A DNA stretch of 64,000 bases from Verrucomicrobiota bacterium (GTDB taxonomy: Bacteria > Verrucomicrobiota > Verrucomicrobiia > Chthoniobacterales > UBA10450): assembly GCA_003218375.1 (NCBI GenBank), contig QHNH01000029.1, forward strand, positions 1 through 64,000, in the 5' to 3' direction. Below the pieces are notes generated by a model, which was not told where the DNA came from, searched no databases, and was given only the letters and a program-made list of their open reading frames with translations. The position numbers and the translations under genes are program-made. Shown here one piece after another: positions 19,335-51,303 of the stretch (the stretch's first letter is position 1; every line of letters starts with the position of its first letter).

Positions 19335-19447
19335 ACCGGACGTAACTCGCAGCCAGGGAGAGTTTTCCGGGAAAAGTGAATTTTCGCGGGGAGAACGGCA
19401 AAATTGGCTTGTCTTTCGGCGCGGCGATAGCTTGTATGCCTCTTTGC

Positions 19448-22400
19448 ATGAACATTAGGAAATTCGCGACGATTACGGTCCTGGTTATTAGTTCTTTCGC
19501 GGCGACGAATGTTGCCCCCACCAAGGCGGAGCTCGAGTCGATGTACGACAAGGCCTTCCGTGAATTCAATGCCGCCAAGAATTTGCGCGGCGTCATCCTG
19601 ATGCGCCAGGCCGAATACGACCAGGCGGAGGCAGCGCTTCAAAAAGCGCTCGCGACCGATCCGAAATTCTGGAACGCCCGTTTCAACCTCGCGGAAATTC
19701 CGTTTTTGCGGAAAGAGTGGGCGGAAGCGCGGAAGCGTTTTGAAGGATTGCTCCAGGGAAATACTTCCGAGCTCCAGGGCGAAGCCGCCCAACTTATCCA
19801 ATACAAAATTCTCCTGACCTACCTGCTCGAAGGAAAGGAGAACATGGTCGATTCCATTCTCGCGAAGTTTGAGCTCACGCCCGATACACCGGCGGTCACG
19901 TATTCGAATGCCGCCGTAGCGTTCCAACACAAGAACGAAAAGGAAGCGAAAGACCTGATCGCGGCCGGCGAGAAAAAGTTTTCGCCCCAGCTCAACAAAC
20001 TCTTCGCGGAATCGTTCTACGAGATCGGCTGGATGCAAAAGCCGGCCGGGCAGACTCGCCCGGAGCTGGAAATAACGACCGCCGCTGACCGCGCCGCGAA
20101 GGCGAAGGCGATTGCGGCGGAGAAGTTCGAGCAGGCGGAGCAGGCCTTTCAACAGCGCGACTACACCGCGGCCAAACGGCTGATCGACGAAGCGGATGCG
20201 GCCGACCCGAATCAGCCCGCGACCATCAATCTGCGCGGCGAAATTTTGCTGGCGCAAAAGGATTTCGACGGTGCCGAAAACGCGTTCAAGCAAGCGGCGA
20301 AGATCGATCCGAAATTCCGCGAGGCGCAATACAACCTGGCCCAGATCCCGTTCAAGAAAAAGGAATACACGAAAGCGCGCGATCGTTTTGAGGCGCTCTT
20401 CAATAACACGCCCGCGCCCGGCGGCGATAAGAACCAGGCGGCCCAGATCATCAAGTTCAAGATTTACCTCACGCTCCTGCTCGAAGGCAAAGACAGCCGC
20501 GCCCAAAAGATGATGGAGCAGTTCCAGTTCACCGGCGACACGCCGGCGCTCTACTACGCGCAAGCGGCCTGGGAGTTCAAACATAACAACACCGCGAAAG
20601 CGAACGACTGGATCGTTTCGGCGAAGAAGATTTATTCGCCCGCGCTCAACCTGGTGTTCGCCGATTCGTTCTACGATGTGGGCTGGCTCCAGGCGCCGCA
20701 AAATGTCGCCGCTGTTCCTGTGAGCCCATCGAAGGAAGTGGCCAAGACGGAAACGGCCCCGCCGTCAATCGAGCCGAGCCCAATCCCGGCGCCGGCCATC
20801 GCGTTGAACAAGATCCCGAAGGCCCCGGAGATCGCGCCGCCAAAATCCACCACGGAAACGACGACGCAGCCGCCAGCCTCGCAGCCGCTGGCGAAGAACG
20901 AAAAGCCGCCCGCCCCGGTCACGACGAATTCACCGAGCGTGGAGATGCCGTCCGCCGCGAATGCACTGCCGTCCGAGACGCGCGCGCCATTGCCGAAGGA
21001 ACCTGAGACGACGACGCAACCCGCCTCGAGTCCGGCGACCAGTCCTGCGACGTCGAACGCGGTGACGCAGCAAAGCCCGGCGACCGCGCCCGCAAACAAG
21101 GGGCCGGCACCGGCGCCCGCAACAACCCTCGCGCCCGCGACCATTCAGCAATCGAACGTGACCGAAAGCACGAACGGCATTAATGCCAACACGCTGTTGG
21201 TTGGCGGCCTCCTGGCGGCGGGAATTTTGCTTTTGGCCTGGGTGGTGTTCTCCGAATTTCGCCGTCGCGTCAGTGTTTCCGTCTATCGCTCGCCCGCGCC
21301 TGCCGGCGGACCGAGGTTCGACGCGGTCGACGAGCAGGAAGCGGTCGTGGAAAAAATGGCCGCGCCCAAGCGCCTTGCAGGTGGCCCGCCACAGGTCTCC
21401 CTGCATCTGAAAGCGTCGGAGCCGTCCGTGCGCCGGGCGGCGGTGCCGTTTAGCAAGACAAGCCGTTCTTTCGGTCCGAATGGCGGCGCGATGACAGTCG
21501 GGGCCGCGGTCGAGAATCTCGTTCCGCGCGCGCCAAAAATTGAACCGACAGAAACACCGGTTGTCGAACCGATCGCCCAGGTCGCGCCGGAACCGGAAAA
21601 ACCGGTGGTTTCTGATTTCGACCGCGAAATTGTCTCCGCGCCGATCACGGAAGTCGCGGAATTCAGTTCCGTCGGCGAACCGCAGGTCATCGAAAGCGTC
21701 GAAGAGATTCCAGCAGCGCCGAAGGAGGAACCGGTCTTCGCCGAAACCCCGGTGTGGACCGAACCCGCCTGGATGCCCATCACGCCGGAACCAACCTGGA
21801 CGCCGACCGCGTTCGAACCTTCCGCGCCAGTGTTCGAGACGCCGGCGCCTATCGAAGAAATGGCCCAGCCGGTGGCCGAAACTTCTGCCTCGTTCGAATC
21901 CTTCAGCGAACCGGTCGTGATCGAGCCGGAGATTGCGCCGACGCCGGTCGCCGAAATTTCCGACTCAGAACCAGTTGCACAAGGGCCGCCCATCCCGTAT
22001 CAAGTTCCCGCGTTTGAAACCGATTCACCGATGGCTGAAATCACCAAACCAGAACCGGAAGAGCTCCCCGCGCACCTTGCCAAGGGCGTCGTTGCGGGCA
22101 CCTCGATGGCCGGAGTGGGTGCGCTTCGCCATTCTGTAGAATCGCCCTCGTTCGCGCCACAAGTCATATCCACCGAGCCTCTGGCTCAGCAGCCAACAAC
22201 ACCAGCTACCATGCCTCAACCGAACCAACCAACACCCGCTCCTTCGATTCGTCCCAGCCCCATGACCGGGGGCGCTCCTCAAACTCAAGCCCAACCCTCG
22301 AGCGGCATGCAGACCGCCGTGCAACTCACCTTCTCGTTTGAGATCGCGTCGCTCCAACTGACGCCGAGTTTCAAGATGGGTGCGCTTCAGCTCAAGCCCA

Positions 22401-22891
22401 CCTCGAAGATTGTCACCATGCGCCTCGCGCCCTCGCAGCAACCGCAACCGGCGATGAATCTCCAGGTCACGTTCGAAATCGCGACCGTGCAGGCGGCGGG
22501 CGGCGGCATCGGCCAGATCCGGCTCACGCCTTCGCAACAGCAGCGCCCGAGCGTGATCAGCTCGCCGGCGTTCAACATCGCAGGGCTGCAGCTCCTCTCC
22601 GGTTCGGAAAGCGGCGCCGTCCAGCTCACGCCTTCGCAGCAAGGCCAGGCCTCGGTCCACGTCACCGGCCGCTTCCAGATCGCGACGGTGGAATTCTCGC
22701 CCTCGTTCGAGATCGCGTCGCTGGTTTTGAATGCGACTTCGAAGAGCGTGTCAGTGCAATTGCCGGGCGCCGGGCCGAGCGCGGTCGAAGGCGCGCCCGT
22801 GTTTGACATTGCGAATGTCCAGATCACCGGCAACGGCGAGATCGGCATGATGCAGCTCAACGCCCAGGGCGCCGCGCCGAAAGCCGCGTAA
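19448..22891 (+). CDS. Large TPR / transmembrane / beta-repeat protein, unknown function
   Basis: The 1147-residue product is a modular membrane protein. Residues 1-25 resemble a signal peptide. Residues about 35-190 and 235-410 are two homologous TPR-containing halves of about 155 residues, an internal duplication. A Pro/Ala/Thr-rich linker reaches a single membrane helix at about 582-602. A long acidic Pro/Glu-rich region follows. The last about 190 residues (from 955) consist of about five degenerate units with the core FEIAxLQL...QLTPSQQ. Nothing in it resembles an enzyme. I infer a cell-envelope scaffold. The start at 19448 gives the best signal sequence; 19436 is also possible. It has its own terminator. 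Confidence 0.8.
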   Translation: MNIRKFATITVLVISSFAATNVAPTKAELESMYDKAFREFNAAKNLRGVILMRQAEYDQAEAALQKALATDPKFWNARFNLAEIPFLRKEWAEARKRFEGLLQGNTSELQGEAAQLIQYKILLTYLLEGKENMVDSILAKFELTPDTPAVTYSNAAVAFQHKNEKEAKDLIAAGEKKFSPQLNKLFAESFYEIGWMQKPAGQTRPELEITTAADRAAKAKAIAAEKFEQAEQAFQQRDYTAAKRLIDEADAADPNQPATINLRGEILLAQKDFDGAENAFKQAAKIDPKFREAQYNLAQIPFKKKEYTKARDRFEALFNNTPAPGGDKNQAAQIIKFKIYLTLLLEGKDSRAQKMMEQFQFTGDTPALYYAQAAWEFKHNNTAKANDWIVSAKKIYSPALNLVFADSFYDVGWLQAPQNVAAVPVSPSKEVAKTETAPPSIEPSPIPAPAIALNKIPKAPEIAPPKSTTETTTQPPASQPLAKNEKPPAPVTTNSPSVEMPSAANALPSETRAPLPKEPETTTQPASSPATSPATSNAVTQQSPATAPANKGPAPAPATTLAPATIQQSNVTESTNGINANTLLVGGLLAAGILLLAWVVFSEFRRRVSVSVYRSPAPAGGPRFDAVDEQEAVVEKMAAPKRLAGGPPQVSLHLKASEPSVRRAAVPFSKTSRSFGPNGGAMTVGAAVENLVPRAPKIEPTETPVVEPIAQVAPEPEKPVVSDFDREIVSAPITEVAEFSSVGEPQVIESVEEIPAAPKEEPVFAETPVWTEPAWMPITPEPTWTPTAFEPSAPVFETPAPIEEMAQPVAETSASFESFSEPVVIEPEIAPTPVAEISDSEPVAQGPPIPYQVPAFETDSPMAEITKPEPEELPAHLAKGVVAGTSMAGVGALRHSVESPSFAPQVISTEPLAQQPTTPATMPQPNQPTPAPSIRPSPMTGGAPQTQAQPSSGMQTAVQLTFSFEIASLQLTPSFKMGALQLKPTSKIVTMRLAPSQQPQPAMNLQVTFEIATVQAAGGGIGQIRLTPSQQQRPSVISSPAFNIAGLQLLSGSESGAVQLTPSQQGQASVHVTGRFQIATVEFSPSFEIASLVLNATSKSVSVQLPGAGPSAVEGAPVFDIANVQITGNGEIGMMQLNAQGAAPKAA

Positions 22892-39210: not shown

Positions 39211-40461
39211 ATGGCGAGTAGGACGCGGAAAAATGTTGGAGTGCTGGGCCTGGGCATCATTGGCCAGCGGGTCGTGGAGAACCTGCGGGAAGGCGGGTTC
39301 CATGTCTTCGTTTGGAACCGGACGCCGCGGCCGGTGCCGAATTTCGTCGGCTCGCCCGCGGAAGTCGCCGAGCTCTGCGATTACATCCAGATTTTCGTTT
39401 CAGACGATGACGCGCTGCTCCAGATGGTGCAGCGGATGACGCCGAACCTGACCGCGCACCACATCGTGATGGCGCATTGCACGGTCTCGCCTGATACGAT
39501 GCGGGCGGCGGCGGAAATCGTGGAGCGCCGCGGCGGGCAACTGCTCGATTGCCCTTTCACCGGAAGCAAGAACGCGGCGGAAAAAGGCGAGCTGGTTTAT
39601 TACGTCGGCGGCGATGAAGCCGCGCTGCGCCAGGCGCGACCGATCCTGGAAGCGAGCAGCAAGGAAATCATCGATATCGGTAAGGTGGGCGATGCCACCA
39701 CGATCAAGGTGGCCACGAACATGATCACGGCCGCGAGCGTGCAAGGCGCGGCGGAAGCCCTGGCGCTGGTTTCGAAATCGGGCCTCTCTCCGGAAAAATT
39801 TGCGGCGGCGATGCGAAACAACGGGAGCAATTCCGCTACGCTCGAAATGAAACTGCCGATGATGATGGAAGGAAATTTCGAGCCGCATTTTTCGGTGAAG
39901 CACATGTTGAAGGATGTCGTCATCGCGACCCGGCTCGCCCGCGCCTTCGGGATCGAATTTGGTGCGACGGATGCGTCCCGGCACGGCCTGACCGAGGAGA
40001 TGCGACAGGGGCGCGGGGATGCGGATTATTCGTCGCTCTTTCGCCAATATTTTCCCGCGGGCGGTCCGCTCGGGGCGGCAGCAAATGGGGAAGAGGACCA
40101 GCCGCGCCTCGCCGGAATCGACGAAGGGAAGACCGAGCAACCCGAAAAAGTTCCGGTGGCGGTCGAGACTTCCGCCGAGGTGCCGTCAGAGGCGAAGTCG
40201 ATGGGGGAAGTGGTGCCGGCGCCTGCGACCGTGGAAGCGGAACCCGAAACGGCAACGGAAGTCGGCGGCCATACTACTGTGCCGGCGGCCCCGAACGAAC
40301 CCGCGCCGGCGATTTCTGCCGCGACCCAGCCTGTCGCTGCGACGGAGCCGAAGCCGAAAGAAGAAACCGTGCTGACCTTCCCAGTGCCGTTGAAGGAAGG
40401 AGAAGGCGAGGAGCCGCGCGGACTCTGGGGCGGGTTCTGGCGCCGGCGGACCGACGATTGA
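39211..40461 (+). CDS. NAD(P)-binding beta-hydroxyacid-dehydrogenase-like protein with disordered tail
   Basis: The 416-residue protein has a Rossmann domain VGVLGLGIIGQRVVENLREGG, a DCPFTGSKNAAEKGEL segment and a helical domain with KVATNMITAASVQGAAEALALVSKSGL, as in 3-hydroxyisobutyrate/6-phosphogluconate dehydrogenases and tartronate semialdehyde reductases. Canonical enzymes have about 290 residues. Here about 125 residues are added at the C-terminus: Pro/Ala/Glu-rich, acidic, ending RGLWGGFWRRR. The tail may bind a partner or membrane. The stop overlaps the region of the next start. Confidence 0.85.
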   Translation: MASRTRKNVGVLGLGIIGQRVVENLREGGFHVFVWNRTPRPVPNFVGSPAEVAELCDYIQIFVSDDDALLQMVQRMTPNLTAHHIVMAHCTVSPDTMRAAAEIVERRGGQLLDCPFTGSKNAAEKGELVYYVGGDEAALRQARPILEASSKEIIDIGKVGDATTIKVATNMITAASVQGAAEALALVSKSGLSPEKFAAAMRNNGSNSATLEMKLPMMMEGNFEPHFSVKHMLKDVVIATRLARAFGIEFGATDASRHGLTEEMRQGRGDADYSSLFRQYFPAGGPLGAAANGEEDQPRLAGIDEGKTEQPEKVPVAVETSAEVPSEAKSMGEVVPAPATVEAEPETATEVGGHTTVPAAPNEPAPAISAATQPVAATEPKPKEETVLTFPVPLKEGEGEEPRGLWGGFWRRRTDD

Positions 40462-40481
40462 GTTCATCCGCCGCGTCGCCG

Positions 40482-41378
40482 ATGACGCCAGCTTTCAGTT
40501 CGGAGCAAACGCGTTTTTTTGATTTGTCGGCACGGGTGAAATTGCGAGTGGCCGGCGCGGACTCTTTTCGTTTTCTCAACGGTCAGATCACGAACGATCT
40601 TCGGAAAGCGGCGGCGACTTCGGCGATTCAGGCATCGATCCTGAACGCGAAGGGAAAACTGAGCGCGCACGTTTTTGTTTCGATGGACAACAACGGCGCT
40701 TTCCGGCTGGACGCTGACGGCGATTTGCGGGAAGACCTTCCCGCCCGGCTCGAGCGCTACATCATCGCAGACGACGTCCAGCTCGAGGATGTGTCCGACG
40801 AATTCTCGGTTCTTCATTTCCTGGGCGAGACGCCGCCCGCGGGAGCGACCCCGGCGAGAACGGTGGCCTCAGAACGTTTTGGCTCGCCGGGCTGGGATTT
40901 TTGGTGCGAGCGTGCCCCGGCCGCCGAACTTCAGAGCCTATTTTCCGAGCGCTTTGATTTTTGCGATGACGTTTGCGCGGAAACCCTTCGAATCGAACGG
41001 GGCGTTCCGCGCTGGGGCCGCGAGCTGACAAATGAAATCATCCCAGTCGAGGCGAACCTGGAAGCGAGCTCGATCGATTACGAAAAAGGATGCTACATCG
41101 GGCAGGAAGTCATTTCGCGGATGAAGATGTCGGGGCAAACGAACAAACGTCTTTGCGGTATTGTGTCGCTTTCCGGCGCACCGTTGGCGGCAGAAATGCG
41201 GCTGACGAGCGAGACCGATCCGGGCAAGGACGTCGGCTGGATCACGAGCGCAACCAGCAGCGCTCGCCTCGGACGCGAGATCGCGCTCGGCTACGTAAAG
41301 CGTGGGTCCAACGAGACGGGGACGCGTCTGCTTGCCGCAGGAATTCCAGTTCAGGTCGCGCCCTTGCCGTTCGTTTGA
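40482..41378 (+). CDS. ygfZ: Folate-binding protein YgfZ
   Basis: YgfZ is a GcvT-like, tetrahydrofolate-binding protein that helps assemble or repair some [4Fe-4S] proteins. The 298-residue protein has FRFLNGQITNDL, LNAKGKLSAHVFV and the diagnostic loop KGCYIGQEVISRM. The ATG at 40482 is preferred; a TTG at 40458 would overlap the upstream stop. The following ABC-like gene begins 3 bases after its stop, so they are likely co-transcribed. Confidence 0.92.
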   Translation: MTPAFSSEQTRFFDLSARVKLRVAGADSFRFLNGQITNDLRKAAATSAIQASILNAKGKLSAHVFVSMDNNGAFRLDADGDLREDLPARLERYIIADDVQLEDVSDEFSVLHFLGETPPAGATPARTVASERFGSPGWDFWCERAPAAELQSLFSERFDFCDDVCAETLRIERGVPRWGRELTNEIIPVEANLEASSIDYEKGCYIGQEVISRMKMSGQTNKRLCGIVSLSGAPLAAEMRLTSETDPGKDVGWITSATSSARLGREIALGYVKRGSNETGTRLLAAGIPVQVAPLPFV

Positions 41379-41381
41379 GTT

Positions 41382-42467
41382 ATGGCCGCTGTCACGCTTA
41401 AGAACATCGGCGGCCTCGATCTCACGATCCACGACCGGGAATTCGTCGTCCTCGCGGGTCCTCCAGGTTGTGGCAGTTCCGCGATCGTTCGGTTGATGGC
41501 CGGCCTGGCGGATGTTTCGCAGGGTGACATTCTTCTCGACGAGCGGCGCATGAACGATGTTCTGCCGAAAAACCGGGACGTTGCTTTGCTCTTGCATGAT
41601 TACACGCCGTACCCGGCGATGACGGTCTCCGAAAATCTGGCGATTGGGTTGGAGCACCGGAAATTTGCGACCGCTGAAATCAGGAAACGCATCGCGGCCG
41701 TTGCCGAAACGCTCGGCTTGCAGGACCAATTGTCCGCGAAGCCGCAATCGCTTTCCCCCGAGCAGCGACGACTCATGGGCCTCGGTCGCGCAATGGTGCG
41801 CCAGCCGAAGGTGTATCTCTTTGACGACCCATTCGCGGATCTCGAGCCGGCCGCTGCGAGTCGTGGGCGCGCGGCGATCGCCGAGCTGCGCTTACGGTCT
41901 TCATCGACGATCCTTTACTCTACGAGCGATCCGGCGGAAGCGTTGGCGTTGGGAGCGCGCACCATCGTTCTCGAGGACGGTGTCGTGCAGCAGGATGCTG
42001 ATGCGCAAACGATCTTCGACGAACCCGCAAACTTATTTGTGGCGAAGTTCTTTGGCGATCCGCCGATGAATCTGATTCACGGAATCCTGAAACAGGAGCG
42101 CGATGCCGTTGCTTTTTCTGAAGCGGGCGATGGAACAATCGCCGTCCGTTGGCCCGCTTCGCGTTTTGCCGGTGCGAAAGAGCTCGTCAGCGCCCCGATT
42201 CTGCTCGGATTCCGTCCCCAGGCTGTCGAGATCGCGGAAGAAGCAAATCGTTCCACAAATGCCTTCCGGGCCCTGGTCGAGCGGGCCGAACCAAGAGGCG
42301 CGGAGACAGACCTTTATCTTCGGACCGGGGCGCACGCCCTGATCTGCCGGAGCCCTCGCTGGGCCGGTCGGGAGGAAGCCGGCCACCGGTTCCAGTTCGA
42401 GATTGAGCTCGGGAAAACGTATCTTTTTGACCCGGTTTCCGGCCGCCGGCTCACGCCGGAACCGTAA
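41382..42467 (+). CDS. MalK-like ABC ATPase fold with all catalytic motifs altered
   Basis: The 361-residue product aligns with MalK/UgpC-type subunits over the whole length, including a C-terminal TOBE domain. Walker A reads GPPGCGSSA (Lys replaced by S32), the Q-loop Gln is H72, the signature reads LSPEQ instead of LSGGQ, Walker B ends in DD (Glu replaced by D149), and the switch His is S182. The N-terminal aromatic (A-loop) segment is missing. ATP hydrolysis seems impossible. No permease or binding protein gene is nearby. It sits between ygfZ and a regulator upstream of glgE. I infer a regulatory or structural pseudo-ATPase. Confidence 0.85.
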   Translation: MAAVTLKNIGGLDLTIHDREFVVLAGPPGCGSSAIVRLMAGLADVSQGDILLDERRMNDVLPKNRDVALLLHDYTPYPAMTVSENLAIGLEHRKFATAEIRKRIAAVAETLGLQDQLSAKPQSLSPEQRRLMGLGRAMVRQPKVYLFDDPFADLEPAAASRGRAAIAELRLRSSSTILYSTSDPAEALALGARTIVLEDGVVQQDADAQTIFDEPANLFVAKFFGDPPMNLIHGILKQERDAVAFSEAGDGTIAVRWPASRFAGAKELVSAPILLGFRPQAVEIAEEANRSTNAFRALVERAEPRGAETDLYLRTGAHALICRSPRWAGREEAGHRFQFEIELGKTYLFDPVSGRRLTPEP

Positions 42468-42560
42468 TTTCCGTTGCTCCTGAATCTTGCGTAAGTTTAG
42501 TATTGCCTTTCCAAGGTGAGCGCGGGTAATCTCTGCCCGCATCTACCGAGGAGCCCCGCA

Positions 42561-43202
42561 GTGAACCAACAATTACTTGCCGAAATCGGCCGCACCCAGC
42601 GGCTCGAAATTCTTAACACGCTCAAGCGCACCAAAGGCTTGTCCGTTAACGAGCTCGTCGCGCGCATGAAGATGAGCTACATGGGCATCAAGCAGCATTG
42701 CCTCACCCTCGAGCGCGACGGTTACCTCGACACCTGGCGGCGCCCGCAAAAAATGGGCCGGCCCGAGATGGTCTATCGCCTCACCCGCCGCACCCACGAT
42801 CTTTTCCCGTGCGATAGCAACGACTTCACCCTCGAGCTGCTGAAGTCGATCAAGGAAGTGCACGGACCCAATGGCCCGGAGAAAATGCTCTTCAATGTCT
42901 TCGAACGAAAAACGGTCGGCCTCAAAGCGAAGGTCAAGGGCGACACGGTCCTCGAGCGCGCGAAATGGCTCGCCGCCCAGCGCGAGAAAGAAGGTTACAT
43001 GTCGCAGTATGTGGCGGATGAAAAAGAAGGCGGCCCGCAGATTCTCGAATGCCATTCGCCCATTTTGAATTTGCTCGATCAATACCCGATCATCGGCCGC
43101 CTCGAGAAAGACATGGTTGAAGGCGTGCTCGGGACGGAAGTGCGCCGCGAAGAGACCCGGACATCGGGACTCTACGAGTGCGCCTTTTATTTCGCGGTCT
43201 GA
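42561..43202 (+). CDS. HTH transcriptional regulator (ArsR/SufR-like)
   Basis: The 213-residue protein begins with a winged helix (residues about 1-75: RTQRLEILNTLKRTKGLSVNELVARMKMSYMGIKQHCLTLERDGYL) followed by RRPQKMGRPEMVYRLTRR, the wing of SufR/DeoR-like repressors. The C-terminal half has conserved-looking ECHSPI and YEC elements, so a metal or Fe-S ligand is possible though the SufR cysteine spacing is not met. The GTG start at 42561 has GAGGAG 7 bases upstream. Target genes are unknown; glgE follows after a palindrome. Confidence 0.8.
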   Translation: MNQQLLAEIGRTQRLEILNTLKRTKGLSVNELVARMKMSYMGIKQHCLTLERDGYLDTWRRPQKMGRPEMVYRLTRRTHDLFPCDSNDFTLELLKSIKEVHGPNGPEKMLFNVFERKTVGLKAKVKGDTVLERAKWLAAQREKEGYMSQYVADEKEGGPQILECHSPILNLLDQYPIIGRLEKDMVEGVLGTEVRREETRTSGLYECAFYFAV

Positions 43203-43284: not shown

Positions 43285-43368
43285 GCCGGGAGTCGCTTAT
43301 GGAATCGGCCCATATTCGCCCACAATTCCGCTTTCGCCGGGGGCGAATCTCAGTTGATTGATGGCCCC

Positions 43369-45339
43369 ATGCTTCGGGCTTTTCCCACCGCCGTCATTGA
43401 GAATTTGCAGCCGCTCGTGGATGGCGGGCGCTACATGGTCAAACGTGTGGTCGGCGACGATCTCGCGGTCGAGGCGGATGTTTTCAAGGATGGCCACGAT
43501 GTCGTCGCGGCTGCGTTGAAATGGAGAAAACTCGGCGAGACGGCCTGGCACGAAACCCCGATGGCACACGTCGATAACGATCGCTGGCGCGGCGTCTGCA
43601 CCCTCTACGAAAACGCGATCTACGAATACACGGTCGAAGCCTGGACCGATCTGTTCCGCGGCTGGCAACACGAGTTTGCGGCGAAGTTCGAAGCGGGCAT
43701 CGCGAATCTCTCCAGCGAGATCCTGGAGGGCGCGGCCTTGCTCGATGACGCGGCGGCGCGCGCGGCGAATTTTGCTGACGCCGATCGGTTGCGCGATCTG
43801 GCGATCACGATGCGGGCGGCCGCGCCCGCCGAAGTAAACGAGATCGCGCATTCCGGTGAGCTGGAAGTGCTGATGGCTACGTATCCCGACCGCGCGAGCT
43901 CCACCCAGTACGGCCCGGCGCCGCGCGTGGGGGTGGACCGAAAGGAAGCGCGCACTGCCGCCTGGTATGAATTTTTTCCCCGCTCCGCCGAAGGCCTGCC
44001 CGATCGCGGCTCGACCTTTCGCGAGTGCCTGCCCCGCGTGGATGACGCGAAGGCGATGGGATTCGACGTGATCTATTTTCCGCCGATCCATCCCATCGGG
44101 AACACGAATCGCAAAGGCCGCAACAATTCCGTCACCTGCGAGCCCGGCGAACCCGGCGTGCCGTACGCGATTGGGAGCGAATGGGGCGGGCACAAGGCGA
44201 TCGAACCGGCGCTCGGCAGTTTCGAGGATTTCGCCTGGCTCGATAACGAAATCCGGAGCCGCGGGATGGAGATCGCGCTCGATTTCGCCATCAATTGTTC
44301 GCCGGACCACCCCTATGTCCGGGAACATCCGGAATGGTTCTACAAGCGCCCTGATGGCACGATCAAATACGCGGAGAATCCGCCGAAGAAATACGAAGAC
44401 ATTTATCCGCTGAATTTCCGTTGCGAGAATTGGCGGGCGCTCTGGGAAGAGATGAAAAGCATCATTCTCTTCTGGGCCGAGCGCGGGGTCCGCATTTTCC
44501 GGGTGGACAATCCGCACACCAAGCCGGTCGCGTTCTGGGAATTTCTTATCAGCGGTGTCCGCGCCCAATATCCGGACACGATCTTCTTGTCGGAAGCCTT
44601 CACCAAACCAAAGATGATGAAGGCGCTGGCTAAGGCCGGGTTCAACCAGAGCTATACCTATTTCACCTGGCGCACGGCCAAGGCTGAGCTGACCGAGTAT
44701 TTCACCGAGCTGACCCAGACCGACATGCGCGAATATTTTCGCGGCAATCTTTTCACAAACACGCCGGACATCCTGCCGTTTCATTTACAGGAAGGCGGCC
44801 GGCCGATGTTCATGATCCGGTCGGTCCTGGCCGCGACGCTCTCCAGCGTCTACGGGATCTACAGCGGTTTCGAGTTATGCGAGAACCCCGCCGTGCCCGG
44901 TCGCGAGGAATACCTCGATTCGGAAAAGTACCAATTCAAGGAACGCGATTGGGACGCGCCTGGGAACATCAAGGCCTGGATCGCGCAGGTGAACCGGATC
45001 CGGAAAGAAAACCGCGCCCTGCATTTTTACGATAACCTCCGTTTCTACCGCGCCGATAATCCCGCGATCCTTTGTTACGCCAAGATGACCGAGGCGCGCG
45101 ACAACATCATCCTCGTCGTCGTTAATCTCGATCCCGTCCGGTCGCAGAACTCCTACGTTTACATCCCGCTCTCCGAATTCGGCCCGATGGATTCGGACGT
45201 TTACCAGGTCCACGATCTCCTGACCGACGCCCGCTACCTCTGGCGCGGCGAACGGAATTACATCGAGCTCAACCCTGCCATCCAGCCCGCTCATATCTTT
45301 CGTGTTCGTCGCTGGCTGGCCGGCGAGAAGTTTGTTTGA
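43369..45339 (+). CDS. glgE: Alpha-1,4-glucan:maltose-1-phosphate maltosyltransferase
   Basis: GlgE transfers maltose from maltose-1-phosphate to alpha-glucan in the trehalose-to-glycogen route. The 656-residue protein has an N-terminal domain with VVIENLQP-like start, a GH13 catalytic barrel with YFPPIHPIGNTNRKGRNN, the nucleophile Asp in FRVDNPHTKPVAFWEF and acid Glu in FLSEAFTKP, and the C-terminal beta domain. Length is typical. ATG at 43369 chosen; a TTG at 43354 is possible. Its last codons and stop form the left copy of a direct repeat that also lies beyond the Rhs genes. Confidence 0.93.
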   Translation: MLRAFPTAVIENLQPLVDGGRYMVKRVVGDDLAVEADVFKDGHDVVAAALKWRKLGETAWHETPMAHVDNDRWRGVCTLYENAIYEYTVEAWTDLFRGWQHEFAAKFEAGIANLSSEILEGAALLDDAAARAANFADADRLRDLAITMRAAAPAEVNEIAHSGELEVLMATYPDRASSTQYGPAPRVGVDRKEARTAAWYEFFPRSAEGLPDRGSTFRECLPRVDDAKAMGFDVIYFPPIHPIGNTNRKGRNNSVTCEPGEPGVPYAIGSEWGGHKAIEPALGSFEDFAWLDNEIRSRGMEIALDFAINCSPDHPYVREHPEWFYKRPDGTIKYAENPPKKYEDIYPLNFRCENWRALWEEMKSIILFWAERGVRIFRVDNPHTKPVAFWEFLISGVRAQYPDTIFLSEAFTKPKMMKALAKAGFNQSYTYFTWRTAKAELTEYFTELTQTDMREYFRGNLFTNTPDILPFHLQEGGRPMFMIRSVLAATLSSVYGIYSGFELCENPAVPGREEYLDSEKYQFKERDWDAPGNIKAWIAQVNRIRKENRALHFYDNLRFYRADNPAILCYAKMTEARDNIILVVVNLDPVRSQNSYVYIPLSEFGPMDSDVYQVHDLLTDARYLWRGERNYIELNPAIQPAHIFRVRRWLAGEKFV

Positions 45340-46095: not shown

Positions 46096-49000
46096 CTACC
46101 ATGGTTCAGAAGTTGGAGCGATACTGTTATAGGATTTTCCATCTTTGACCGTCGTCGTTTGCCTTAACACGCCTGGAAGGAAGTACTTGTTTTCGGTCCC
46201 ATGCTGGAGCCACCATGGTTGATCTTTAATAACAGTTCCTGTCATGCCCGGCGAAGGGTGGTAACCGTTCCCCACTCTGTCTCTGGCTTGGCCGCTACGC
46301 GGTAGTTCATACAATTTTCTTCCGTTGGTGGTCTCCACCTTAAACTTTCCATCTTGGCACTCCGAGCTGCCGGAACACTGGTTCACCCTGACCTTTATTT
46401 CTTCCTGAGCATACCAGCCCCGTCCGTCCTGCGCCTTTCCATTGGGTTGGGTGAGTTGAACAGAAAAGATTCTGTAATACCCGTCATCCTCAAATTTTTG
46501 GTTCCCGGTTGCGGGGTCGGTGGCAATTGTCATCGTCATTGACTTTGTGGTATCGCTGGTTGGCGTGTCCGACTTAGGTGCTTCGTTTGCCTGCCGTGTG
46601 GGCATTCCGGTAACGGTGGCACTACCTCCGCCCTCGCCGCCGCCGCCATCCATCCCGGCCGGGTGGCGGAGTTGCTCCCAATTGTCAAAAGACAAATGAG
46701 AACCGCTTTGCCACCACATGTGCCGATCCCAAACGTAATCCGACAGTAGCCCCATCGGGTCAGTGTAATCCGCTGGATCGTTGTGGCAGTAACGGTAGAG
46801 ATTGCTCGCGTCGCCTTTGAACCCGATCGGGTCAGCCTGGAGGAAGCGGCCAAGCTCGGGGGACATAAAGCGGTTTCGCAGGTCATAGAGGCCCAGCTCT
46901 GGAATCCAGCGCTCGCCAGCATAGAGATCAGTGACGTTGAAGGTTGAGGAGTTGATAGGTTGAGAGGTTGAGTTGAAATAACTTGGGGTCCCATACAGGT
47001 CGTAGCGATAGCTCTCCAAGAGGTTGCCCCCGCCGTCGGCAATGTGAGTGGTGCTGCCGAGTTTGTCCTGGTACCAATAGAAAGTTCCATTTGCTCCCCA
47101 CGACTTGATCACGCCGTTCGCACCCTGGAGATAAGAAGCAGCTGGCGTCAGACCGGACGCATACTCTTCGAGCAGCTCCCAGTTATCCCAGGCGCTGAAG
47201 CGGACCACGTTATTGATGTTTCGCGCGATCTGGCGGTTCTTTCCATCGTAGTAAAACTCAGCGCTGGTCGTCCCATTGCTCGCCGTTCTTAGCCGACTCT
47301 GGGCGTCGTAAGTGTAAGTCCAGCCTTTGTTGGCGATCAGGTTCCCGTTCGGATCGTAGGCGGGCGCGTTAGGATCGGTTTCCCCGATCGACTGCGGCAT
47401 GTTGATCATGCCGCTGTTGTCCACTTCGTACGAAGTTACGTTCGAGTCAATCATCCCATCCAGATAAGCCAGGGCCTGGAAATAGCGGTGCGACCCGTTG
47501 CCCACCCCTATTGGACCACTATAAACCTGGGTGTCTCCGGTCGGAGTCGCCCCGTTGTGGGTCGGCGGGGCCGGAAAATTGACCGTACCGATGGTATAAA
47601 AGACGGTCGCGCCGGTCGTGTTCGTGGCCATGCTTACCCAGATCGTCTGAGGATAACCCCCGCTTTCGGTGAACTCAACCTGATCGACCTGTGACATCGG
47701 AGTCGCCGTTGGCGTGGCGGTAGGGGTCGCGGTCGCTGTGGCAGTAGCTGTGGCCGTGGCGGTTGCTGTCGCCGTGGGAGTGGCCAGCGGAGGGATCGTG
47801 GGCGTGGCGGTTGCTGTCGCGGTAGCGGTAGCGGTCGCAGTCGGGGTTGGCGCTGGAGTTGCGGTGGCCGTGGCAGTCGCCGTGGCCGTTGCTGTAGGGG
47901 TTGCTGTAGGTGTGGGGCCCGTTGGCGGGGTGGCGGTAGGCGTGGCCGTCGGTGTCGCAGTCGGGGTGGGAGATGGGCCGCCGGTCTCGGTGATTCCGGT
48001 GTATTGGTTTAAACCATTGACCGTGTAAGTGGCGTTGACGAGGGCCGGATTGCTATTGGTGAGAGTGGTGCGGTTCCCACACGGATCGAACGCGATCCCC
48101 AGGTTGTTGCTTTCGCTGGCAATGGTAACGTCTATCGGCCAGTTCTGGAAGGTTCCGTCGCGCTTGAAGGTCTTGATTTCCCGGGTCTCATCGTAATCGA
48201 ACCAGTCGCCGCGCTGTTGGTCCCGGCGCACCGCTATGAGGTTGTTCACGGTATTGTAGACGTAGTCGAATCTCGGCGTGGTGCCGTTGAGGTTGTGCGT
48301 AATGCCGGTGATCCGGTTGGCGTCGTCGAACGCGAGATCGGTGGAAGTATTTGCGTTATCCCGGATGATGCGAGTGGCATTGCCGCTCTTATCGTAAGTG
48401 TAAGTGACGATCGCAGGACCCGAGGTTGTAATCGGCGGGCCTGGGGTGGCCGGAAAGATATGCCAGAGCTGATTGCGCTGGGTGTAATCGTAGGTGAAAG
48501 ACGCGCCGCTAGGATAAGAAACGCCCTGCCGGTTGCCATCATCGTCGTAGGCGTAGGTGACGGTGCGGTGGGTGTTATTGTCGTTGAGCGGGGTCGTCCC
48601 GCTCCACCATTCATCCTCCGTCTTCGGACGGTTGTCGTCGTAGTAAGTCTGGTGGATGGTCGTTTGGGCTGTGGCCGAGCCGGGGATGCCCGTGCGGATT
48701 TCCTTGACCTGCGAAGCATCGTAATAGTCCGTCTCCTGCCATGGCGTGACGCCGTCGCTCCACTCGAAACGTTGCTGCCGGTTCCGGTCGTCGTATGTGA
48801 AGCTCTGAGTAAAGCCGGAACGATTTTTATAGGTCTTGAGGTTCCCGGCCTCGTCATAGGTCCAGCGCTCGGTGCTGACGTTGCCGCTGCTGTCAGGGGG
48901 ATAGGTAGCCCTCTTCTTCCGATTTAGCTCATCGTATTCGTAGGAATAAACGTTAAGGTTCTCATCCTTGTGCATCGTCAGGTTGCCGGCATGGTCGTAG

Positions 49001-51303
49001 CCCATGGAACGGTGATTGCCGCGCTCATCGATCTGTTCCTTGAGTCGATTCATGGGGTCGTACTCGACGAATTGAACCCTGTGGCCGTCATCGGGCGTGA
49101 CGCTTAGTTTGTTGTTAGCCACATCGTAAGCGGTCTCAGTCTTGTGACCGGTTTTGAGGTTGCCCACCTCGTCATAGGTCGATGTGGTAGTGGCTTCGTC
49201 ATTCGTCCCCGGCGCCTGCGTGGTCCGGATGCGCCGGAAATTTCCGTCGAAGTCGTACTCGATGACCTTCTGTGAAGGCAGAGTGGTGTGGTAAACCGAT
49301 GACGTGGTATGCGAAAGCGGGCTCAATCCACCGCTCAGGGGCGTGTAGTCATTCGTGGTGGCCAGCTCCCCCGGTTTGGTGACACTGATGACGCGTTTGT
49401 ATTCATCGTAGATGAAGCTGGTCCGTTCCGCCTCGTGCCCGCCCATCCCGGCGTTGGGATGGTTTTCGTCTGCCGTCCAGGCAAGCGTGCCGTCGGGGTT
49501 GTAAACACTCTGGGTAAAGGTGCCATCCTGATGTTGCACCTTCGTGACCTGGCCGCGCTGGTTATATTCGTATGCCGTCGCGTTCCCGCGCGGATCAATT
49601 ACCATGTATAGCCGGTCGGTATTGGGTCCGCTCTCGTAATACAAATACTGGGTCTTATGTTGATCCGGGTTCGGGTCGCTCTCGGTGGGCGGCGGCCAAT
49701 AGAATGTTTTTCGGCCGCGGGTGTCGTAGCGAAAATGCTCGGTCCCGCCGCTGGTCATTAGGTGTTCCGTCACCTGGCCGAAGTTGTTAGTGCTCTCGTC
49801 GTAGGTGAACTGTTCGACGCCGTCATCGGGATAATGGACCTTCCAGATGCGGTTCTTGGTATCGCGATCATAGACGATCGTATGGTTGAGCTCGTCCGTC
49901 TTGCTGATCAGGTAATAAGGAAACTGATGATTGGAGTAGTCATAGAAGATTGAGGCGGTCTCTCCAGCGGCATTTTGGGGATGAGTGACGGAGATAAGCG
50001 CGCCGGTCTCGTTATTCTTCTTGAGAGTGGTTGTGTTCCCCCGCGCATCCTTGAGAAACTTCAAGTAGTTGATCCCGTCGCCGGCGCCTGCGTAGGTGAT
50101 GTAAGAGATGTGGTTCTGGAAATCGGTGTAATCGGAGAGCTCGGCAGTGTCATAATGGAAGGTTCGAGTCTTGCCATCAGCCCGGTGTTCTGTCCGCCAG
50201 GTAATCTGCGCCGATTGATAAGCCGGGTACTCAATTCGGGATAACGCAATTTCGAAAGATGGATTGGTGGTAACGTTTTTTTCCGCTGAAATCTGCCCCC
50301 AGGTGTCCGACTGAGAGCGATTCATGTATTCGTACTTGATATTCTTCATTGATCCGGCAAAGCGGACATCGCGACAGCTCTCGACGCGTCCAGGGCACAT
50401 ACTCCACTTGTTATTCGTGGCGTCGCCCGCGGGATAATAGGTGTAGGAGGCGGTTGTGTTATCGTCGTAATGAACCTGCGTTAGGTTCCAAAACTTTACG
50501 TTCACCATCCCTTGGGCGTATTCCGGGTCATACCCGTATGTTACAGTTTCCACGAGGTTGTTCGGGCCCGCAAAAGCCTGCACCGAAGCAATGACGTCGA
50601 TATAGCTGTCGGAAGTAAGGCCGTACAACCTTTGAAAGTTGATCAGGAGAAAACGTCCGGCCGGCTCAGTGATTTTAAGAGTTTGGTTTTGGGAATCGTA
50701 TTGGAGAGTGGTCCTTTGCAAGTACGGGTCAACGATCGCAACGGCCACGAGATCAGTCGCACGCGTAGAGTCTTGAGGATGGCGAAACTCGACTTTGCCG
50801 CCGTCCCGCAGTACAAGATCGAAGCCGTTACCCACATTCACGAGCCGATCCATTGGTTCTTTGGTATCCGTCAGCGGCGAATACTCAACGCCGTCCTGGC
50901 TCTGGAGATATATCACCCGTCCGTCGGGATAAGAGAGGCCGCCGTCCGGCCCTTCGTACTGATTTTCGCCGCCATGCGGTGGATTGGCGCCCCTGATCCA
51001 CATCCCCCAGGCATAGGAATGCGACCACCCGCCGCCATCGCCAAAAGCGCCGCTCACTCCCCGGGTGTTGAGCACGCGCGTCCACTTGAGGGGATAAGCA
51101 CCGACAGCTCCGGTGACGGTGAGATCGTCGATAAATCTTTTTGAATTACCCGTGTAAGGATCATACGACCCGGCGGTGGTGACGCTGCCATTGTGCTCGC
51201 CCGTTACACCGGTGGGATTATCGTTGCCGACTTCGGCGCACAGATGCGTGGCGACCGAAGAAATCGAGAGGACCAAGCCGAATAGCCGAAAGTAACGTTT
51301 CAT
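46096..51303 (-). CDS. Rhs/YD-repeat protein with Ala-Thr-Pro linker and inserted beta domain
   Basis: The 1735-residue protein has a signal peptide (MKRYFRLFGLVLSISSVATHLCAE). Dozens of YD repeats (e.g. YDEAGNLKTYKN, YDHAGNLTMHKD) follow, then the Rhs core end LYDLRNRFMSPELGRFLQADPIGF with YRYCHNDPADYTDPMGL. Inside the repeat region (about residues 1110-1200) a long PTATPTATAT linker is followed by about 95 residues like a chitobiase/HEX C-terminal beta domain. After the core the C-terminal tip (about 210 residues) is unlike any toxin I know. It is probably exported or surface-bound. The gene belongs to a three-gene operon (51950 to 45455). Confidence 0.85.
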   Translation of the reverse strand: MKRYFRLFGLVLSISSVATHLCAEVGNDNPTGVTGEHNGSVTTAGSYDPYTGNSKRFIDDLTVTGAVGAYPLKWTRVLNTRGVSGAFGDGGGWSHSYAWGMWIRGANPPHGGENQYEGPDGGLSYPDGRVIYLQSQDGVEYSPLTDTKEPMDRLVNVGNGFDLVLRDGGKVEFRHPQDSTRATDLVAVAIVDPYLQRTTLQYDSQNQTLKITEPAGRFLLINFQRLYGLTSDSYIDVIASVQAFAGPNNLVETVTYGYDPEYAQGMVNVKFWNLTQVHYDDNTTASYTYYPAGDATNNKWSMCPGRVESCRDVRFAGSMKNIKYEYMNRSQSDTWGQISAEKNVTTNPSFEIALSRIEYPAYQSAQITWRTEHRADGKTRTFHYDTAELSDYTDFQNHISYITYAGAGDGINYLKFLKDARGNTTTLKKNNETGALISVTHPQNAAGETASIFYDYSNHQFPYYLISKTDELNHTIVYDRDTKNRIWKVHYPDDGVEQFTYDESTNNFGQVTEHLMTSGGTEHFRYDTRGRKTFYWPPPTESDPNPDQHKTQYLYYESGPNTDRLYMVIDPRGNATAYEYNQRGQVTKVQHQDGTFTQSVYNPDGTLAWTADENHPNAGMGGHEAERTSFIYDEYKRVISVTKPGELATTNDYTPLSGGLSPLSHTTSSVYHTTLPSQKVIEYDFDGNFRRIRTTQAPGTNDEATTTSTYDEVGNLKTGHKTETAYDVANNKLSVTPDDGHRVQFVEYDPMNRLKEQIDERGNHRSMGYDHAGNLTMHKDENLNVYSYEYDELNRKKRATYPPDSSGNVSTERWTYDEAGNLKTYKNRSGFTQSFTYDDRNRQQRFEWSDGVTPWQETDYYDASQVKEIRTGIPGSATAQTTIHQTYYDDNRPKTEDEWWSGTTPLNDNNTHRTVTYAYDDDGNRQGVSYPSGASFTYDYTQRNQLWHIFPATPGPPITTSGPAIVTYTYDKSGNATRIIRDNANTSTDLAFDDANRITGITHNLNGTTPRFDYVYNTVNNLIAVRRDQQRGDWFDYDETREIKTFKRDGTFQNWPIDVTIASESNNLGIAFDPCGNRTTLTNSNPALVNATYTVNGLNQYTGITETGGPSPTPTATPTATPTATPPTGPTPTATPTATATATATATATPAPTPTATATATATATATPTIPPLATPTATATATATATATATATPTATPTATPMSQVDQVEFTESGGYPQTIWVSMATNTTGATVFYTIGTVNFPAPPTHNGATPTGDTQVYSGPIGVGNGSHRYFQALAYLDGMIDSNVTSYEVDNSGMINMPQSIGETDPNAPAYDPNGNLIANKGWTYTYDAQSRLRTASNGTTSAEFYYDGKNRQIARNINNVVRFSAWDNWELLEEYASGLTPAASYLQGANGVIKSWGANGTFYWYQDKLGSTTHIADGGGNLLESYRYDLYGTPSYFNSTSQPINSSTFNVTDLYAGERWIPELGLYDLRNRFMSPELGRFLQADPIGFKGDASNLYRYCHNDPADYTDPMGLLSDYVWDRHMWWQSGSHLSFDNWEQLRHPAGMDGGGGEGGGSATVTGMPTRQANEAPKSDTPTSDTTKSMTMTIATDPATGNQKFEDDGYYRIFSVQLTQPNGKAQDGRGWYAQEEIKVRVNQCSGSSECQDGKFKVETTNGRKLYELPRSGQARDRVGNGYHPSPGMTGTVIKDQPWWLQHGTENKYFLPGVLRQTTTVKDGKSYNSIAPTSEPW
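46941..46967. repeat. Copy of the ribE-leader word repeat inside the Rhs gene
   Basis: Bases 46941-46967 match the inverse of 4861-4887 at 25 of 27 positions. The segment is in frame and encodes part of SQPINSSTFN in a linker of the Rhs core. Confidence 0.75.
47699..47970. repeat. Hexamer-based minisatellite coding the Ala-Thr-Pro linker
   Basis: The plus strand shows variants of GTGGCG/GTCGCN with a 6-base period for about 270 bases, which on the coding strand give alternating Ala-Thr and Pro-Thr. Third positions vary, so it is an old or selected repeat rather than a perfect satellite. Confidence 0.85.

Follow-up and report, generated by a model that had tools for sequence, protein, structure and literature searches.

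The reading frame at positions 41382-42467 of the window, the 64,000-nucleotide stretch of DNA that was analysed, encodes a 361-residue MalK-like protein (hereafter P0001) in which most residues required for ATP handling are replaced. Judging from this sequence and its orthologues, we consider the gene probably to be a genus-wide pseudo-ATPase, a relic of sugar importers that have since disappeared, which was kept for a binding or regulatory function that needs no catalysis. Loss of the motifs coincides with purifying selection in every species, and this combination makes a pseudo-ATPase mechanism the likeliest one. The initial annotation of this DNA had proposed a MalK-type pseudo-ATPase, and this idea gains support from our data: the degeneracy is not a sequencing accident, the neighbourhood is kept and the open frame is under purifying selection. 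The annotation had also thought a sensor of sugar metabolism conceivable, but none of our results points to sugar sensing.

Identity of the gene product

When P0001 was compared with NCBIfam models, the UgpC subfamily scored best (264.7 bits; curated cut-off 432) and MalK second (212.3 bits, also under its curated cut-off). Pfam ABC_tran gave 71.8 bits. By sequence and by predicted fold the protein is homologous to the CUT1/MalK-UgpC family across both the NBD and the OB/TOBE domain. The AlphaFold model is confident (mean pLDDT 89.2, pTM 0.86), and the closest PDB structure is that of B. subtilis MsmX (6yir, TM 0.82). The TOBE domain had been described as complete. Indeed, the C-terminal OB/TOBE part has its full length and is predicted to be folded and mostly beta, but in Pfam it narrowly misses the curated thresholds (OB_MalK 26.0 vs 27; TOBE 20.9 vs 22.3). 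A search of genome contigs for related loci yielded mostly sequences of Poribacteria and Firmicutes (23-44% identity), which were used only for the structure alignment.

ATP-handling motifs

Motifs were assigned by alignment with E. coli MalK; in paired numbers the MalK residue precedes that of P0001 (Table 1). Substitution of the Walker A Lys, the Q-loop Gln, the LSGGQ signature, the Walker B Glu and the switch His had been claimed from the sequence, together with a missing A-loop. Our alignment confirmed all of these substitutions, and the A-loop segment was found to be deleted. Both signature glycines are replaced (G136 by P126, G137 by E127), and the exchange of the Walker B Glu for Asp is a mild change. 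Scoring seven core residues (K42, Q82, S135, G137, E159, D165, H192 in MalK numbering), we found six replaced in the window's species, and the protein failed the test for intact ATPase motifs. Three residues are retained, namely the Asp of Walker B (D148) and, in Walker A, G31 and the Ser (S33). From these residues, an ATP hydrolysis cycle does not appear plausible for the protein of this species.

Table 1. Positions of the gene, its motif remnants and its neighbours in the window
Feature	Position	Strand	Evidence and remarks
ygfZ (CAF17-like Fe-S repair protein)	40458..41378	+	TIGR03317 78.3 bits vs cut-off 49; syntenic in family
malK/ugpC-derived pseudo-ATPase gene, 361 aa	41382..42467	+	NCBIfam UgpC, Pfam ABC_tran, AlphaFold, PDB match; ATG start, TAA stop, coding part 41382-42464
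Site of deleted A-loop segment, between N8 and G11	41403..41414	+	Alignment with MalK and congeners
Walker A remnant GPPGCGSSA, Lys to Ser32 (K42 to S32)	41457..41483	+	Alignment
Q-loop remnant LLLHDY, Gln to His72 (Q82 to H72)	41586..41603	+	Alignment
Signature remnant LSPEQ, Glu127 replacing second Gly of LSGGQ	41751..41765	+	Alignment
Walker B/D-loop remnant LFDDPFADLE	41817..41846	+	Glu to Asp149 (E159 to D149); D-loop Asp to Glu155 (D165 to E155)
H-loop remnant STSD, His to Ser182 (H192 to S182)	41919..41930	+	Alignment
C-terminal OB/TOBE regulatory domain, residues 225-361	42054..42464	+	Pfam OB_MalK, TOBE slightly under cut-off; predicted mostly beta
SufR-like winged-helix regulator	about 42516..43202	+	TIGR02702 SufR 68.6 bits, under cut-off 178.8
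glgE (maltosyltransferase), end of syntenic block	43354..45339	+	Pfam GlgE_dom_N_S 173.3 bits, GLGE_C 99.7 bits

Orthologues in the genus and the family

Our genus sample comprised eight genomes including that of the window's species (G000). Each of them carries exactly one intact syntenic orthologue, and the seven other proteins are 49-61% identical to P0001. At E 1e-30, a second MalK-like gene was detected in none of the eight genomes. Frameshifts or recent decay in a single strain, which the initial annotation had weighed against its own reading, were not observed: the frame is open in all eight species, without any frameshift or stop. Strain-specific decay was rejected since the orthologue is degenerate yet intact across the genus.

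The number of core residues lost per species is 6, 6, 5, 4, 3, 3, 3 and 1 of 7, and the only core lesion common to all eight congeners is the replacement of Gly137, the second Gly of LSGGQ, by Glu. This position is Gly in 18 of 19 canonical relatives. Three non-core changes (Q194P, T199A, P218A) are also common to all eight species. The other core positions differ, and the suggestion that relatives might conserve the same substitutions was thus not borne out beyond Gly137. The Walker A Lys position reads S/H/C/K/K/I/I/L and the Q-loop Gln position H/G/K/Q/E/K/Q/G in the eight congeners. At the H-loop, Ser is present in the window's species, G005 and G007 and His in the other five. The A-loop deletion recurs in G005 and G001, and in G006 this segment is shortened. 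Three residues are invariant (8/8): the Asp of Walker B and, in Walker A, the Ser and one Gly. A new active site formed by shared, fixed substitutions was also considered, but was rejected for all positions except Glu127 because the other core positions vary. The protein of G003 lost a single core residue and keeps K, Q, E, D and H. It could still bind ATP, and this counts against the explanation we prefer.

In the wider family, canonical motifs were found in genera g4, g10 and g11 and in seven outgroup families of the order, with one exception (G025, LSGSQ). Partial motif losses occur in genera g2, g3 and g9. On the species tree, the degenerate state requires at least two origins, and the gene tree is concordant. 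Sister genera either retained the canonical copy or deleted the gene cleanly. Seven other genera of the family keep the block without malK, and here ygfZ and the SufR-like gene are spaced by 73-165 bp; for some genomes of g5, no SufR-like gene was observed adjoining ygfZ. This outright deletion in seven related genera indicates that malK is dispensable in the wider family. As a separate observation, the malK orthologue of G025 (L040), which belongs to the canonical clade, carries a signature Gly to Ser exchange plus Q194P, T199A and P218A; possibly, it represents an early stage of the path taken in the window's genus.

Genomic neighbourhood

The gene had been described as coupled to ygfZ and close to a regulator and to glgE. 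All three genes were found in place, and relatives keep the ygfZ-glgE neighbourhood. ygfZ runs in the same direction and ends 3 nt ahead of the ATG of the pseudo-ATPase gene. For the SufR-like gene there is an alternative start (GTG at 42561, behind GGAG). Since the surrounding block parB-M28 peptidase-PPIase-HIBADH-ygfZ-malK-sufR-glgE is conserved in most of the family, orthology is secure.

An analogy with MalK, which is known to bind the regulator MalT, had also been suggested. However, the best model for the adjacent regulator is SufR, an iron-sulfur regulator, and the test for a MalT-type partner at this locus failed. Moreover, in genera in which malK was deleted, ygfZ still has the regulator and GlgE at its side. 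The neighbourhood is therefore an old syntenic block and not evidence for a MalK-regulator pair, which leaves the MalK-MalT analogy without direct support.

Selection on the gene

Selection was quantified by codon maximum likelihood using IQ-TREE and a custom codon-likelihood script for fixed omega, which reproduced the lnL and omega of IQ-TREE. For the genus we obtained an omega (dN/dS) of 0.196, which is an average over sites at large divergence, and omega = 1 was rejected (2 delta lnL = 737). Every terminal branch separately rejected this value (2 delta lnL 18.8-51.9), including those of the most degenerate species (omega 0.16 for G000 and 0.14 for G005). To judge by shared states, the common ancestor of these two species would already have lacked the H-loop His, the signature Gly and the A-loop.

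The genus value is about 2.5 times that of canonical MalK (0.078) and far from 1. In canonical MalK, the ATPase domain (0.052) is under tighter constraint than the regulatory domain (0.114). This contrast is absent in the genus, where the ATPase domain (0.189), the motif windows (0.204, three-part fit) and the regulatory domain (0.208) gave similar values. A 26-species branch model, the optimisation of which ended at the iteration limit, yielded 0.077 for canonical copies, 0.192 for the genus and 0.215 for the stem. For the flanking genes, omega was 0.162 (ygfZ), 0.103 (HIBADH), 0.053 (GlgE) and 0.032 (SufR-like). Synonymous divergence of the pseudo-ATPase gene is similar to that of its neighbours, and an overlapping antisense gene is thus unlikely as source of constraint.

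These data bear on the alternative of slow decay, according to which the transporters are gone, selection is relaxed and the gene is on its way out. Such a course would account for the clean deletion in seven related genera, for the elevated omega, for the independent drift of the motifs and for the joint decay of pump and motor in G025 and G008. However, with an omega of 0.20, the value of 1 is rejected both overall and on every terminal branch, and ygfZ, an ordinary neighbour, has a similar omega. In addition, sequences drifting neutrally until they differ by 0.7 per site should have acquired about 10 in-frame stops, but none of the eight species carries a stop or a frameshift. With an undisrupted frame and an omega not near 1 the gene failed the pseudogene test, and we consider slow decay unlikely.

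The preferred reading, retention for a non-catalytic role, agrees with the distribution of the conserved residues. Among the positions conserved in canonical copies, 4 of 16 catalytic ones were retained versus 64 of 173 others (p = 0.42). When the two domains were compared, 15 of 23 conserved residues of the regulatory domain were kept in all eight congeners, but only 38 of 109 of the ATPase domain (Fisher p = 0.0097). Better retention of the C-terminal regulatory domain fits with a regulatory use. Since the catalytic positions are kept no better than others and those of the regulatory domain are kept best, a binding or regulatory role is favoured.

Loss of the sugar pump

The model PRK10998.1 (296 positions), which we take to be MalG, gave no match in six of the eight genus genomes, G000 included. 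The weak matches in the other two (G005, G006) look like molybdate-type permeases beside an ATPase of their own. Searching for SBP_bac_1 proteins gave the same picture across the genus, with none in G000. The latter genome has seven BPD-type permease matches, each adjoining its own ATPase gene, and neither a cognate CUT1 permease nor an ATPase-less importer was recognised there; the assemblies analysed are in part incomplete. A decayed MalG partner was looked for at the nfeD locus of the genus, and none was found. Most genomes with canonical MalK carry MalG-type permeases and SBP_bac_1 proteins, and the operons inspected contain no ATPase gene, as is the case for the importers that MsmX energises in B. 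subtilis (PMC7658222). A few canonical genomes, including several less complete assemblies, showed no or only a weak MalG match. G025 and G008 each have a solo MalG-like permease that is degenerating along with the MalK protein. From the pattern of MalG and MalK presence we infer that the pump was lost first and that the motor degenerated thereafter.

Several gene arrangements were seen in relatives. G028 and G016 (L216, L098) carry sugar-importer operons, and the stretch that was read lacks an ATPase gene. The solute-binding protein and MalF appear to share a single reading frame (845-870 aa in G028, G034 and G009), after which MalG follows. Solo MalG-like permeases occur in G016, G025, G072, G009 and G008 (L196, L213, L214, L195, L194), and in g10 and g2 genomes this gene immediately follows one for an NfeD/ClpP-like protease in the vicinity of dnaG.

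Comparison with known ABC proteins

With MsmX-type multitask ATPases (B. subtilis MsmX, S. pneumoniae MsmK), P0001 shares the fold, the OB/TOBE domain and the location as a single gene apart from any permease, and the copies of its canonical relatives coexist with ATPase-less sugar importers. The multitask contact residues of MsmX (D77/R104/E110/K154; PMC7658222) correspond to D66, R93, E99 and K143, which are conserved in 6/8, 7/8, 8/8 and 8/8 genus species, respectively. In contrast to MsmX and MsmK, the ATP-handling motifs of P0001 are replaced and no CUT1 permease is left in the genus to serve. E. coli MalK and UgpC align over the full length and provide the two best models, but P0001 stays under their cut-offs and the catalytic residues are missing.

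Heterodimeric ABC proteins (PMC7756269) and the fused RbsA/NupO (PMC11466899) are known to have degenerate ATP sites. That of Pdr5 involves a Cys in Walker A and an LNVEQ signature (PMC7756269). The degenerate sites of Pdr5, TAP, CFTR and RbsA/NupO show the same kinds of change (Lys to Cys, signature Gly to Glu, Glu to Asp, loss of His), but these proteins keep one active site. P0001, on the other hand, is encoded by the only MalK-like gene of its genome and this gene is degenerate, so that a homodimer would have no intact site.

As a non-catalytic partner, P0001 might pair with a second, active ABC subunit or dock as structural subunit on an unrecognised permease, and the retained permease contacts, above all E99 and K143, as well as the frequency of degenerate sites in heterodimeric proteins such as Pdr5 would be in line with this. 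However, the heterodimer test yielded no close paralogous partner with intact motifs among the genus genomes, the next MalK-like match in G000 reached only 74 bits and all BPD-type permeases of this genome have an ATPase gene at their side, which makes such a partnership rather improbable, although a distantly related ABC protein might still serve as partner. It is hardly credible that P0001 is still an active, unorthodox ATPase with Asp substituting for the catalytic Glu, since the invariance of S33 and D148 in the genus (Walker A Ser and Walker B Asp are the usual Mg ligands) and the residues kept in G003 are outweighed by the loss of the Walker A Lys, the Q-loop Gln, the H-loop His, both signature glycines and the A-loop in the window's species, and since the six species without the Lys show no new consensus at its site (S/H/C/I/I/L).

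Proposed course of events

For the pseudo-ATPase that we regard as retained for binding or regulation, the following scenario may apply. The ancestor would have been a vertically inherited, shared (MsmX-type, "multitask") ATPase which powered CUT1 sugar importers lacking an ATPase of their own. Importers of this kind are no longer recognisable in the genus, as our searches showed. The signature Gly to Glu exchange, present in all species, is an early lesion, and the other ATP-handling residues drifted separately in each species, as their present variation shows. Today, the protein may form a folded MalK-like dimer that binds a partner protein or a small molecule via its OB/TOBE domain and the surface which formerly docked onto the permease, acting by binding and not by hydrolysis. 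A more detailed version is a serious possibility that we put forward tentatively: throughout the genus, a shared sugar-pump motor might have become a signalling or scaffold protein without catalysis. The stages, which could still be read from living species, would be the canonical form, the signature Gly to Glu exchange, loss of the pump and loss of the other motifs, while some sister lineages decayed in parallel and others deleted the gene.

Many protein families, that of the kinases among them, commonly include pseudoenzymes. Our literature search, which had partial coverage, retrieved no stand-alone ABC importer ATPase that was kept after loss of both catalysis and pump. Here, the canonical state, partial loss, complete loss and deletion are all found at a single syntenic locus, and it can thus be measured and tested directly in which order the events took place and how much constraint persisted once catalysis was gone.

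Elsewhere in the window, the open reading frame 19376-22891 encodes a TPR-like protein of 1171 aa, the end of which (22000-22891) contains repeats of roughly 33 residues (..FEIASLQLTPS..) with a DNA spacing of 99-102 nt. Positions 46096-51303 encode a YD/RHS-repeat-like protein of 1735 aa with an internal low-complexity TPTATATA spacer.
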